In this document: positions 1,372 through 27,833 of the stretch, one piece after another | Position numbering within the stretch: the stretch's first letter is position 1 | Layout of the letters: each line of letters starts with the position of its first letter | Origin: an uncultured Erysipelotrichaceae bacterium | Lineage (GTDB): Bacteria; Bacillota_I; Bacilli_A; Erysipelotrichales; Erysipelotrichaceae | DNA: 49,078 nucleotides | Assembly (NCBI GenBank): GCA_945877405.1 | Contig: CAMCSA010000015.1 | Coordinates: 1-49,078, forward strand | Direction of reading: 5' to 3' | Notes under the pieces: model-generated | Seen by the model: the letters and a program-made list of their open reading frames with translations, nothing else | Database searches by the model: none | What the model was told of the DNA's origin: nothing | Translations under genes and position numbers: made by a program

Positions 1372-3006
1372 ATGCCGTCTATGGAAAAGAAAGATAGAAA
1401 AAATTCATTACTGGTAGGCGGTCTGATCGGGACAGCCGGAATGTTCATCGCAAAGATGATCGGTCTGCTGTATTCCATTCCGTTGTCTTCCATTCTTGGC
1501 TCAGATATGCTGATGAGCTATTACGGAACAGCCTATCGTGTATATTCATACATTCTGAATGTGTTTACTGCAGGGATTCCGTTTGCGATCTGTACGATGG
1601 TCGCAAAATATACGGCTTTGGATGATAACAGATCACTTCTGAAGATACGAAAACTGTCGCGTACACTGCTTGCCTTGTTCGGTTTTTTCGGAATGCTGCT
1701 TCTGATGGCACTTTCCTATCCGCTTGCGAAAAATGTCTGTGGCTCTGATGATCCGGGTATCATGATCATGGTATTCCTTCTGCTTTCACTGGCTCTGTTT
1801 TTCGTGCCGATTCTTTCTGCTTACAGAGGTTTCTGGCAGGGAAGAAAGGAAATGGTGGAATATGCCATTTCTCAGTCATTCGAGCAGATCTTCCGCGTCG
1901 GATTCCTATTATCAACAGCCTATGTTCTTGTCTATACGCTGAATATGGATAGAACGTATGCTCTGTATGCGGCTGTTCTTTCCACTTCTGTTGCGGCAAT
2001 TGCCGGTATTGTTCAGATTGTATATTTTGATAAGAAACATCTGAAACCGATTCGCAGCGATGCAAAAAATCAGACATTCCGTTCCGTAAAAAACAGGGAG
2101 CTGGCAAGAGAACTTCTGATCCTTGCCGGACCATACTTACTGACAAGTATGATCGGATATATCGATGATATTCTCAATTCAACTCTATTACCGATCGGAT
2201 TACGAATGCATGGATACAGCAGTGGAGACAACAGTGTCATTCTGTCTGCATTCAATTACGTAGGAACAAAACTGTGCAGTATTCCCCAGATTCTATCTCC
2301 TGGTTTTGCGGCGGCATTGATTCCATATATTACAGAAGCAGTCACAAACAATGATCGTAAGAAGATCTCGTCCATGATGACTGAATGCATCGGCATTGTC
2401 TTTTTCATCGGTGCCTTCATGTCTGCCATCATTGCGATCTATTCCAAAGATATCTTTACAGTTCTGTTTTATACAAGCGATCTTGAACTTGCGTCCAGTG
2501 TTACAAGATGGATGGCAATTGAAGCTTTCTTTGGCACGATCTGTCCGATTGTCAGTTCATTAATGCTTGCTGCTGGTTTAAAAAAATCGGTATTACGCAG
2601 ACATTTCGTGACAGCTGCTATAAAGCTTATTACAATCATACCTCTGACATATGTTCTTGGTTTCAGAGGAGCCATTATATCTTCTGCATTAGGTTATATA
2701 TACTTCTATGTGGGAAATATGATTGAACTTGAGATCAGGTATGATATCTACTTTAGGAAACTGATTGCTAATTTCCTTAAAATAGCTGTTTCTCTGATTG
2801 TGGCATTTGGTGTTTCCCTTGGACTGCGTATCATCGGACTGGATGGAAGTCAGGGGACAAAGCTGGTCGCATTTGTAAAGCTTTGTGGTAATGGACTTGT
2901 GACAATGGTGGTGTACTTCGGACTGACGGAATTGCTGAAAGTACCGCATGCATTATTCCATCGTTCATTGATTTCCGTGATTACATCGAAACTGAAAAGA
3001 AGCTGA
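1372..3006 (+). CDS. MurJ/SpoVB-type polysaccharide flippase (MOP superfamily)
   Basis: A roughly 544-residue membrane protein with about 14 hydrophobic segments and the N-terminal GLIGTAGMFIAKMIGLLYSI stretch usual in YtgP/SpoVB-type flippases. Members move lipid-linked oligosaccharides, including lipid II, across the membrane; B. subtilis YtgP acts as MurJ. Its place directly after a femX-like gene makes lipid II the likely cargo, which is inference. The reading frame can be opened from a GTG at 1330, but ATG 1372 has GGGG 8 nt upstream and gives a more normal N-terminus; ATG 1381 is also possible. An intrinsic terminator overlaps its stop codon, so the two genes form one transcript. Confidence 0.85.
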   Translation: MPSMEKKDRKNSLLVGGLIGTAGMFIAKMIGLLYSIPLSSILGSDMLMSYYGTAYRVYSYILNVFTAGIPFAICTMVAKYTALDDNRSLLKIRKLSRTLLALFGFFGMLLLMALSYPLAKNVCGSDDPGIMIMVFLLLSLALFFVPILSAYRGFWQGRKEMVEYAISQSFEQIFRVGFLLSTAYVLVYTLNMDRTYALYAAVLSTSVAAIAGIVQIVYFDKKHLKPIRSDAKNQTFRSVKNRELARELLILAGPYLLTSMIGYIDDILNSTLLPIGLRMHGYSSGDNSVILSAFNYVGTKLCSIPQILSPGFAAALIPYITEAVTNNDRKKISSMMTECIGIVFFIGAFMSAIIAIYSKDIFTVLFYTSDLELASSVTRWMAIEAFFGTICPIVSSLMLAAGLKKSVLRRHFVTAAIKLITIIPLTYVLGFRGAIISSALGYIYFYVGNMIELEIRYDIYFRKLIANFLKIAVSLIVAFGVSLGLRIIGLDGSQGTKLVAFVKLCGNGLVTMVVYFGLTELLKVPHALFHRSLISVITSKLKRS

Positions 3007-3022
3007 GATATGCTTCTTTTTT
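2995..3022 (+). terminator. Terminator of the femX-murJ unit
   Basis: AAAAGAAGC pairs with GCTTCTTTT around an 8-nt loop that contains the murJ stop codon, followed by a T run. Confidence 0.8.
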
Positions 3023-3032
3023 GGTGCCTCAG

Positions 3033-3064
3033 GCAAACGAAAACCGGATGAATATTCATCCGGT
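3033..3064 (-). terminator. Terminator of tRNA-Gln (22-bp perfect palindrome)
   Basis: Positions 3043-3064 are a perfect palindrome with half-site ACCGGATGAAT. Read on the minus strand it follows the tRNA 3' end by 6 nt and continues into TTTCGTTT, so it fits an intrinsic terminator for the tRNA. On the plus strand it has no T run. Confidence 0.75.
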
Positions 3065-3070
3065 ATCTTA

Positions 3071-3146
3071 TGGCTGGGATAGAGAGATTCGAACTCCCGA
3101 AATGACTGGTTCAGAGCCAGTTGCCTTACCGCTTGGCTATATCCCA
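3071..3146 (-). tRNA. tRNA-Gln (anticodon CTG)
   Basis: The minus strand folds into a complete 76-nt cloverleaf. The acceptor is TGGGATA/TATCCCA with discriminator G and an encoded CCA (3073-3071). The D-arm contains AGCCAAGCGGTAAGGC, the anticodon stem is ACTGG/CCAGT with loop CTCTGAA, so the anticodon is CTG. The T-loop is TTCGAAT. The 5' sequence closely matches Bacillus-type tRNA-Gln. It reads CAG codons. It is divergent from gltX, whose product in most Bacillota also charges tRNA-Gln with Glu before amidation. Confidence 0.95.
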
Positions 3147-3158
3147 ACAGCAATATTT

Positions 3159-3186
3159 ATTATACGCATTTGACGAATGTATGCAA
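3159..3186 (-). promoter_or_regulatory. Promoter of tRNA-Gln
   Basis: On the minus strand, TTGCAT (3186-3181) and a perfect TATAAT (3164-3159) are 16 nt apart, 12 nt before the tRNA 5' end. Confidence 0.75.
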
Positions 3187-3219
3187 GTGTTTTTTGAATA
3201 AAACATGAAAAAGTTTCTG

Positions 3220-3248
3220 TTGAAAATACTGAGTATGCGTTGTATAAA
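3220..3248 (+). promoter_or_regulatory. Sigma-A-type promoter of gltX
   Basis: TTGAAA (3220-3225) and TATAAA (3243-3248) are separated by 17 nt, 43 nt before the gltX start. Confidence 0.75.
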
Positions 3249-3291
3249 GGTTTGAGAAAGAGTAAAATGGAACGGCAAAGGAGTAATAAAC

Positions 3292-4746
3292 ATGGCAATT
3301 AGAACAAGATTTGCACCAAGTCCTACCGGTTATATGCATATTGGTAATCTGCGTACTGCACTGTATGCGTATCTGGTTGCGAAGAAGGATCCGGAAGGTG
3401 TGTTCATTCTTCGTATTGAAGATACCGATCAGGGAAGACTTGTAGAAGGTGCTACAGATATTATTTACGATACAATGAAGGCATGCGGTCTGAAACATGA
3501 TGAAGGACCGGATGTCGGTGGTGCATATGGTCCATATGTACAGTCAGATCGAGTCAGAAGTGGTCTGTATATGGAATATGCAAAGGAACTGATCAGAAGA
3601 GGTGGTGCACACTATTGTTTCTGTGATGAAGAAATGATTGCGGCATCTCGTGAACTGCAGGAAGCACGTGGAGAAAGCTTTAAATATGATGATCCATGTA
3701 AAAATCTGAGTATTGAAGAAGCTGAAGCAAGAATTGTTGCAGGAGAGCCATTTGTCATCCGTCAGACAATTCCTGAAACAGGTACAACATCTTTTGATGA
3801 TGAAGTGTTTGGAAGAATTACGGTAGATAATGAAACTCTGGATGAACAGATTCTGATCAAGTCTGATGGTTTCCCGACATATAACTTTGCCAATGTTATT
3901 GACGACCATCTGATGGGCATTACAGATGTTGTAAGAGGTATGGAATATCTTTCTTCTTCTCCAAAGTATAACCTCATTTATGAAGCATTCGGTTGGGAAA
4001 TTCCTCGTTATATTCATTGTCCGCCTGTTATGAAGGATGAACATTCCAAGCTGTCCAAGCGTAATGGCGATGCATCTTTCCAGGATCTTGTCGCAAAAGG
4101 ATACCTGCCGGAAGCAATTCTGAACTATATTGCATTACTTGGCTGGTCTCCGAGTGAAGATCGTGAAATCTATTCTCTGGATGAACTTGTACAGGCATTT
4201 GATGTCAAGCATATTGGTACATCCGGTGCAATCTTTGATCCGGAAAAGCTGAAGTGGGTAAATGCAACATGGTTACGTGCAATGGATCTTGACTCCTATT
4301 ATGCCCTTGTAAAGCCATATATCGATGAAGCAGTCAAGAGTGACCTTGATAAGAAGGCAATTGCCAAGGTTGTTCAGCAGCGTGCTGATACACTGGCAGA
4401 CATTGCACCAATGCTTGATTTCTTTGATACATTCCCAGCTTATGATAATGATCTTTACAACAATAAGAAGATGAAGACAAATCCTGAGGTAGCACTGAAT
4501 GCACTGACCCAGTGCCGTGAAGTACTTGCGGGAATTGATGAGTGGAAAGAAGAAACACTGCATACGGCATTGCTGGAACTGCCTAAGAAGATGGGCGTCA
4601 AAAACGGTATCGTTCTGTTCCCATTACGTCTTGCAATTACAGGAAAACAGTTTACACCAGGTGGTGCAATTGAAATTGCAGCAATTCTTGGTAAGGAAGA
4701 AACAATGAGAAGACTTGATCTTTCCATTGAACAGCTGTCTCGATAA
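3292..4746 (+). CDS. gltX: Glutamyl-tRNA synthetase
   Basis: A 484-residue class I synthetase that attaches glutamate to tRNA-Glu. The first ATP-binding motif is at residues 8-19 (APSPTGYMHIGN) and the KMSKS counterpart is KLSKR at 253-257. The length matches bacterial GluRS. A ribosome site (AAGGAG) precedes ATG 3292. No glutaminyl-tRNA synthetase is seen here, and the divergent neighbour is tRNA-Gln(CUG). In most Bacillota GluRS is non-discriminating and also makes Glu-tRNA-Gln for the GatCAB amidotransferase; that this one does so is inference. It has its own promoter and terminator, so it is monocistronic. Confidence 0.97.
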   Translation: MAIRTRFAPSPTGYMHIGNLRTALYAYLVAKKDPEGVFILRIEDTDQGRLVEGATDIIYDTMKACGLKHDEGPDVGGAYGPYVQSDRVRSGLYMEYAKELIRRGGAHYCFCDEEMIAASRELQEARGESFKYDDPCKNLSIEEAEARIVAGEPFVIRQTIPETGTTSFDDEVFGRITVDNETLDEQILIKSDGFPTYNFANVIDDHLMGITDVVRGMEYLSSSPKYNLIYEAFGWEIPRYIHCPPVMKDEHSKLSKRNGDASFQDLVAKGYLPEAILNYIALLGWSPSEDREIYSLDELVQAFDVKHIGTSGAIFDPEKLKWVNATWLRAMDLDSYYALVKPYIDEAVKSDLDKKAIAKVVQQRADTLADIAPMLDFFDTFPAYDNDLYNNKKMKTNPEVALNALTQCREVLAGIDEWKEETLHTALLELPKKMGVKNGIVLFPLRLAITGKQFTPGGAIEIAAILGKEETMRRLDLSIEQLSR

Positions 4747-26130: not shown

Positions 26131-26152
26131 AAACTCCATTGTGGAGTTTTTT
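26131..26152 (+). terminator. Terminator after ruvX
   Basis: AAACTCCA and TGGAGTTT flank a 3-nt loop, followed by TTT. It lies just before the left end of the IS relic and separates ireB-ruvX from DUF1292-mltG. Confidence 0.85.
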
Positions 26153-26173
26153 CATAAAAAATAAAGGAAACAA

Positions 26174-26189
26174 CGACTCTTTAGAGTCG
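26174..26189. repeat. Left-end palindrome of the IS605-like element
   Basis: CGACTC-TTTA-GAGTCG, identical to the right-end copy. Subterminal hairpins of this kind are the TnpA recognition sites in IS200/IS605 elements. Confidence 0.85.
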
Positions 26190-26195
26190 GTTTGA

Positions 26196-26330
26196 CTATC
26201 CCTGATTTTCGATGTATCTCTCAATCGTTTCTTCTGATACGTTACCTGTACTGCATGCAGAATATCCGTTTGTACATAGGATTCCTCTTCCAAAACCATA
26301 GCTTATTCGGCACAAGTATCCTAAGGAATT
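26196..26330 (-). pseudogene. TnpA (IS200/IS605 HUH transposase) C-terminal remnant
   Basis: Translating the minus strand from 26330 gives about 44 codons ending at a stop (26198-26196). The last part reads GNVSEETIERYIENQG, very like the C-terminal GNVS...I..YI..Q of IS200-type TnpA. The catalytic HUH half (about 100 residues) is missing, cut off just before the tnpB promoter. The stop faces the left-end palindrome, as expected in IS605, where tnpA and tnpB are divergent. It is a dead fragment. Confidence 0.65.
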
Positions 26331-26364
26331 CTACAGTATAATAACAGTATTGAAGGAGAACAGA

Positions 26365-27631
26365 ATGGTTGATACTGTTAAGACAATGAAACTGCACATT
26401 CACATGAATGACACTGATATAAGCTCTGTGAAACATATGACAGAGCAGTATCGTCTTGCCTGTAATTTCGTGTCCCAGTATATCTTTGACCATGACTTTC
26501 CGATGAGTTCTGTAACTCTTAGTAACAGACTGTATCAGACAATACGTTCTGAGTTTGGATTGAAGTCACAGATGGCACAATCCGCAATACGAACCGTGAC
26601 AGCCAGATACGATGGGATCAGAACACAGATGAAGGAAAAGCCATATAAGTTCAAGGATATCTATACGAACAAGTGGTACTGCGTCTACCGGAATCTGGAC
26701 TGGTTGCAGAAACCTGTTCTGTTTTCCAGACCACAGGCAGATCTTGTCAGAAATAGAGATTACAGCTTTGTAACAGATCAAAAGACGAATACAACATATC
26801 TATCCCTGAATACATTGGATGGCAGAATCAAAGTAACTTTTGATGTACCTGCATGTTTCAGTGATTACTTTGATGGTACATGGTCATTTGGAACAGGAAA
26901 GATTGTATCATTGAAAGATGAATGGTACTTTCACATTCCTGTGACAAGAAAGAACGATACTGAATTTGACAAAGATCAGGTGAAGCATGTTGTCGGTATT
27001 GATCGTGGTCTTCGTTATCTGATGACAACATACGATGAGAACGATCAGACTTCTTTCTATTCTGGTGAAGCGGTATGCAGGAAAAGAGAAAACTTTAATA
27101 AAGTCAGAGCTGAATTACAGTCTAAAGGTACAAAATCACACAAAACGTGCATTGAAACGTATTTCAAAACGAGAGAACCGTTGGATGAGCGATGTCAATC
27201 ATTGCCTGTCAAAGACACTCGTGGATACATACGGAAGCAATACGCTGTTTGTGATGGAAGACCTGACGGATGTCAGCTTTGATGAAAACCTGAGAAACCG
27301 TAACAGTAAACAGCGTAATGAATTACGATCATGGTCGTTTTACCAGCTGGAACAGTTTCTGACATACAAAGCAGAAGAAGTCGGTTCTAAGGTTATTAAA
27401 GTATCACCGGAATACACATCACAAAGATGTCCAAAGTGTGGAAGAATCCATAAAGCCAATAGAGACCATGATTCACATCTGTATACATGTGACTGTTGCG
27501 GATATCAGGCTAATGACGATCAGGTTGGTGCTATGAATATTCAGTTGTTAGGAACATTATGGATTTCCGGTAATGAGAATCCGAAGTTCAGAATATCTGA
27601 ACAGGAAAAAGCAATCAAAACAACCAGTTAG
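26365..27631 (+). pseudogene. tnpB: TnpB (IS605 OrfB) RNA-guided nuclease gene, frameshifted
   Basis: Two overlapping frames make one TnpB of about 420 residues. The first frame starts at ATG 26365 (AAGGAG upstream) and holds the N-terminal helical region and the first RuvC Asp, D213 in VGIDRGLRY. Near 27130-27145 (after QSKGTKS) similarity jumps to the +1 frame, consistent with one inserted base. The second frame has the RuvC Glu (FVMEDL, codon 27257), the zinc finger CPKCG...CDCCG and the last Asp region NDDQVGAMNI. Apart from the frameshift all key residues survive. It may be a recent pseudogene, a sequencing error or a programmed shift. Confidence 0.88.
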
Positions 27632-27788
27632 AAAAACATTTCAATACGGGTGTCCGTCAATCACCCGACGAGTTGCAACAGTCCTCTGTACCGAGGGAGA
27701 CGTGAATCGTCTAATATGGGAGCATTACCTTGTAATGACGTTAGGACCATATGAGTGAGTTACAAGCCTCGACTCTTTAGAGTCGGGG
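27632..27788 (+). ncRNA. Predicted omega-RNA (reRNA) region at the right end
   Basis: The stretch from the tnpB stop to the right-end palindrome is dense in hairpins: GGGTG/CACCC (27650-27667), CCTC/GAGG, GACG/CGTC, and a nested ATATGG/CCATAT around CATTAC/GTAATG. TnpB systems express a guide RNA from the tnpB 3' end through the right end, with the guide taken from flanking DNA. The likely 5' boundary may lie inside tnpB. If the right end lies at about 27790-27800, the guide would come from the DUF1292 upstream sequence. This is inferred from position and folding. Confidence 0.6.
27767..27788. repeat. Right-end palindrome of the IS605-like element
   Basis: The same CGACTC-TTTA-GAGTCG hairpin as the left end, lengthened by three more pairs (CCT with GGG, one G-U). 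Confidence 0.85.
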
Positions 27789-27833
27789 TAATTGACTTCC
27801 CGGATGGCTCTTTTCTGTACTTCAACTTTCTGT

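Follow-up and report, generated by a model that had tools for sequence, protein, structure and literature searches.

The stretch of DNA analyzed here (the window; contig C15, 49,078 nt, of a 2.13-Mb genome assembled in 86 contigs) carries a remnant of tnpA beside a tnpB whose catalytic residues can still be recognized, and this raises the question of whether the segment is a relic frozen on its way from transposon to stand-alone TnpB with its RNA, as a preliminary description had proposed, or a derivative of an element that continued to move. Our analysis makes it highly likely that the segment is a nonautonomous, multicopy IS605-type derivative that was mobilized after the loss of tnpA and whose tnpB was frame-broken later. 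We established its boundaries, its target, the deletion common to its copies, the break in the tnpB frame, the existence of a complete relative, and the presence of empty sites.

The limits of the element (Table 1) were set by the end of homology among copies with differing flanks and by comparison with a full-length relative (stretch L034, positions 2404 to 4354). This copy alignment placed an IS605-type element where one had been described but moved its limits from 26174 and 27788 to 26156 and 27796. In all left ends of the same genome, as well as in the Floccifex copy described below, TTCAT directly precedes the element and is itself preceded by unrelated sequence, while TTGAC forms the final letters of the right ends in nearly all copies aligned from this genome. 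The locus has the layout of the IS605 group, namely, divergent tnpA and tnpB and subterminal palindromes without terminal inverted repeats, and the insertion lies 3' of the fixed pentanucleotide TTCAT without target duplication. Of the Y1 HUH transposase of such elements, the window has the C-terminal TnpA remnant only, the full gene being found in the Floccifex copy. The proposed common origin of the parts is upheld: they belong to one IS605-type element with structured ends, for which a complete version is known in Floccifex porci. The bounding palindromes are identical, as had been noted, but are 17 rather than 16 nt long. With up to two mismatches, the pattern CGACTCTTTAGAGTCGG has 19 sites genome-wide against 0 for a reversed control pattern, so its occurrence is not due to chance. 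By eye, the TTCAT insertions at window positions 26140 to 26155 and in stretches L011, L013, and L034 directly follow a terminator-like hairpin with a T run, and the several insertions give the impression that such hairpin sites are preferred.

Table 1. Features of the element and its flanks (positions in the window)
Feature	Position	Strand	Remarks
Whole IS605-type element, internally deleted and frame-broken	26156..27796	+	1,641 nt; homology between differently flanked copies ends there
TTCAT insertion target, left of element	26151..26155	+	Predicted TnpA left cleavage site and predicted TnpB TAM
Left-end palindrome CGACTCTTTAGAGTCGG	26174..26190		Exact match; ssDNA hairpin z of -2.65
tnpA remnant, last 36 codons (ISYGFGRGILCTNGYSACSTGNVSEETIERYIENQG) and stop	26196..26306	-	PF01797 match; intact homologue in L034; same remnant in seven copies
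tnpB 5' part with RuvC-I Asp (GIDRG)	26365..27136	+	Frame lost near 27136
tnpB 3' part with RuvC-II Glu (MEDL), zinc finger, and RuvC-III Asp	27143..27631	+	Other frame; matches solved TnpB/Cas12f chains
Right end, ending GGGGTAATTGAC	27632..27796	+	Predicted omega-RNA scaffold at about 27638 to 27796; conserved in ten copies
Right-end palindrome, same letters as left (CGACTCTTTAGAGTCGG)	27770..27786		Exact match; ssDNA hairpin computed
Host sequence, would-be guide of omega-RNA transcript (TTCCCGGATGGCTCTT)	27797..27812	+	Expected from the element boundary and from what is known of TnpB

A complete version was found once among 146 genomes of the family, in Floccifex porci LKV-178-WT-2G (accession no. 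NZ_VUMM01000002.1; G001:C12:133403-135353), a member of the same family as the window host but of another genus. It shares its TTCAT target and both ends with the window copy and carries an intact, single-frame tnpB divergent from a tnpA with a 142-codon open frame containing HIH and ERYIENQ. The window copy is about 94% identical to it in nucleotides over tnpB and the right end and 88% identical in the left end; as the Floccifex version has a full tnpA and an unbroken tnpB, the window copy is an internally deleted derivative. Among 273 genomes of the family, no genome other than Floccifex yielded the left-end motif, and phage, plasmid, and viral-contig collections held no close copy that would point to a carrier between genera, only distant tnpB similarity in lactobacilli. 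In the window, the element separates ruvX from a DUF1292 gene. In all of the 19 closest congeners examined, the two genes are direct neighbors and the element is absent, and the insertion is therefore young relative to the genus. The empty site that had been suggested as a check was thus recovered, while the counterevidence that the preliminary description had asked for, relatives sharing the segment without tnpB, was not encountered in that form, as the congeners are without the whole element there.

The minus-strand fragment had been taken for a TnpA C terminus of about 44 codons. Its TnpA similarity is real, although only 36 codons are recognizable: the region from 26199 to 26306, ending GNVSEETIERYIENQG, matches PF01797 (Y1_Tnp) at profile positions 94 to 121 of 121 (23.1 bits against a cutoff of 23; E = 8.5 × 10−5) and shows 60% identity, over 35 residues, with the intact TnpA encoded by the complete relative. 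About 100 N-terminal codons are missing, including the HUH motif. The claim that the catalytic half was lost therefore holds for the HUH part but not for the C-terminal helix, which is retained together with the Tyr of ERYIENQ.

A search for copies in the same genome, as proposed earlier, recovered a second full-length copy on contig C16, five further left ends (C24, C20, C42, C65, and C28), and four further right ends. All nine partial ends lie at contig ends, as expected of a repeated element split by short-read assembly, and indicate about five extra copies and hence a total of about seven. Seven of seven left ends, at different genomic sites, have one and the same tnpA remnant joined directly to the start of tnpB. 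As a single tnpA deletion is common to seven sites, the element must have moved after the loss of tnpA, which contradicts its description as frozen. The C16 copy (stretch L026) lies inside a permease-like gene, whose two flanking parts are not in frame with each other, and directly to the right of the element a stretch seems to be missing.

These observations suggest a route in which an ancestor would have lost the N-terminal tnpA codons while retaining both ends, and the deleted form would then have spread to at least seven sites. As the copies moved after their own tnpA was lost, this spread was most likely driven by a cognate TnpA acting in trans, which would excise the single-stranded element at TTCAT and the right-end TTGAC; the excised single strand would then insert after another TTCAT. 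The assembly yielded no cognate full-length TnpA, its best full-length TnpAs being 30 to 36% identical to that of Floccifex. The cognate enzyme may either have been lost or lie in unassembled repeat sequence, and if it has been lost, the element family is perhaps now immobile. With 23 matches to the TnpB zinc finger domain and 16 to TnpA or fragments of it, many located at contig ends, the genome shows expansion of several IS605/IS1341 families.

In tnpB, we detected the motifs GIDRG, MEDL, CPKC/CDCC, and DDQ and matches to the profiles PF01385, PF07282, and NF040570. However, the frame that holds GIDRG runs into stops, and MEDL, the zinc finger, and DDQ are read in another frame. The catalytic Asp and Glu, the zinc finger, and the last Asp are thus all present, as had been reported, but an active nuclease has its RuvC D/E/D residues and zinc finger in one continuous open reading frame, and here they are split over two. 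The gene had been called near complete, which does not hold, the first RuvC Asp being separated by the break from all of the other catalytic elements. Comparison with Floccifex gave pN/pS values of 0.12 for the part upstream of the break and 0.18 for the part downstream, such low values in both parts being expected of a gene that worked until recently. Hence, tnpB appears from these comparisons to have been under purifying selection until recently, with its frame lost afterwards, and the guided nuclease is very probably not produced by the window copy.

The break itself has to be weighed against the way in which the repeat was assembled. The C15 and C16 full-length copies have 78 differences, 39 on each outer side (where they differ by about 10 to 19%), and none over the 1,035 nt from 26554 to 27588. 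Gene conversion and collapse of the repeat by the assembler may, with equal likelihood, account for this identical core, and because of it the frame break rests on perhaps one consensus. Contigs C65 and C28, moreover, terminate in one shared 55-mer, as happens at a node of the assembly graph that was left unresolved. It is accordingly conceivable, though unlikely, that the assembler created the break, or the identity of the core, as an artifact and that the real copies vary in the tnpB core, some of them being intact; even a collapsed consensus, however, reflects sequence present in the reads, and the insertion is real, given that C15 links ruvX and the DUF1292 gene, which are neighbors in relatives. 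Programmed ribosomal frameshifting, by which a full TnpB would be made across the change of frame, could explain why that change is present in both assembled full-length copies and why each half of tnpB reads well in its own frame. Nevertheless, the complete relative has tnpB as one uninterrupted frame, no known slippery heptamer was seen at the site, and the two copies, identical in the core, are perhaps one collapsed repeat. In view of the intact relative and the possible collapse, we set frameshifting aside as very improbable.

Domestication, in which a frozen relic passes from transposon to a retained stand-alone TnpB with a guide RNA, would fit the destruction of tnpA alongside still recognizable catalytic residues in tnpB, as well as the low pN/pS of the tnpB parts against Floccifex, although the latter is also expected if the frame break is recent. 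A domesticated TnpB or TldR is marked by an intact gene, the absence of ends, and orthologous positions; here the gene has a broken frame, both mobile ends have been kept intact, and the site is empty in the 19 congeners, with no sign of retention in relatives, while the deleted form occurs in multiple copies at different sites. We accordingly give this reading very little credence; the broken frame, the multicopy state, and the empty sites led us to rule it out. There is also scarcely any chance that the tnpA remnant is maintained as the source of a functional short peptide. A pooled pairwise pN/pS of 0.34 for the frame of the remnant, compared with 1.0 and 2.1 for the two alternative frames, was suggestive, but the signal disappeared on counting distinct changes (10 synonymous and 18 nonsynonymous; P = 0.12), and the variable columns of the remnant fall 10/7/10 by codon position. 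In addition, the remnant is without a conserved start codon and has an internal stop in the C28 copy.

Reduced forms of the element are found in the same genome. Ends-only elements occur on C33 (235 nt; L017, positions 2468 to 2702) and, as a diverged copy, on C19 (L021, about 2500 to 2724), and both join a common short non-IS core (AAAGATGATTTTG...) to the full right end. Still shorter are two 45-nt copies made up of the left flank, one palindrome, and the right flank (L024, 2576 to 2620, on C5; L025, 2503 to 2547, on C17), which differ from each other by one base. The C5 copy lies between TTCAT and CCG in a gene for a flavoprotein, into which it brings a stop codon; joining its flanks at TTCAT|CCG restores a single frame of 557 aa, which makes this copy the clearest evidence for the boundaries and the target. 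The 45-nt copies are consistent with an origin by palindrome-to-palindrome recombination, or with a 45-nt unit that is itself mobile. The C33, C19, C5, and C17 copies correspond to PATEs, that is, IS605-type ends that carry no transposase genes and occur at more than one site, whereas the window copy does not. Right-end-only relics are also present on C3 (L015, 2734 to 2907) and C9 (L016, 2502 to 2611); to their left lie genes without their 5' part (by eye, glycosidase-like and peptidase-like), suggesting deletions from within the element into the neighboring gene.

As RNA, the right end itself has a slightly better fold than shuffled versions of it (z = -2.36). Covariation is almost absent, with one pair showing two-sided change, and an Rfam search of the right end matched no known RNA family. 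An omega-RNA is expected from family membership and is predicted here. It is conceivable, though improbable, that the 235-nt and 45-nt copies are mobile and that the 235-nt type supplies guide RNAs in trans to TnpBs made elsewhere; if so, one element family would persist as guide-only and hairpin-only parasites.

The insertion targets of ISDra2 and IS608 are TTGAT and TTAC, respectively. The element described here resembles ISDra2 and ISHp608 in having subterminal hairpins, in inserting 3' of a fixed short target, and in the structured right end that follows its TnpB gene, but it differs in its TTCAT target, its mostly deleted tnpA, and its frame-broken tnpB. For TnpB in the IS200/IS605 family, the comparison drew on PMC8612924. 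Halanaerobium hydrogeniformans has 22 IS605 copies with divergent tnpA and tnpB, of which only one has an intact tnpA; 17 copies have one common, internally deleted type of tnpA beside tnpB, and there is a 271-nt ends-only, PATE-like copy (PMC7290912). Our family is alike in its common deleted tnpA and its ends-only copy; the host and sequence differ, and in our case the genome's own assembly yielded no intact cognate tnpA, which is present in a relative from another genus. In Haloquadratum walsbyi, deletion of the core between near-terminal palindromes gives rise to terminal-only elements, including one of 52 bp from ISHwa23, divergent elements have shrunk to C-terminal remnants, and terminal-only copies may move (PMC3119063). 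Those IS605-type and PATE families are archaeal, whereas the terminal-only copies described here are 45 nt long and occur in a bacterium.

All of the forms observed here thus have published counterparts among the Halanaerobium IS605 elements and the Haloquadratum PATEs, while the IS605-type family with a TTCAT target in an Erysipelotrichaceae-like host appears, as judged without an ISfinder comparison, to be without a name so far. Within this one element family, a complete relative, tnpA-deleted multicopy forms, ends-only forms, and 45-nt single-hairpin forms make up a series of decay, and the family cautions that a broken tnpA is no proof of either immobility or TnpB domestication.
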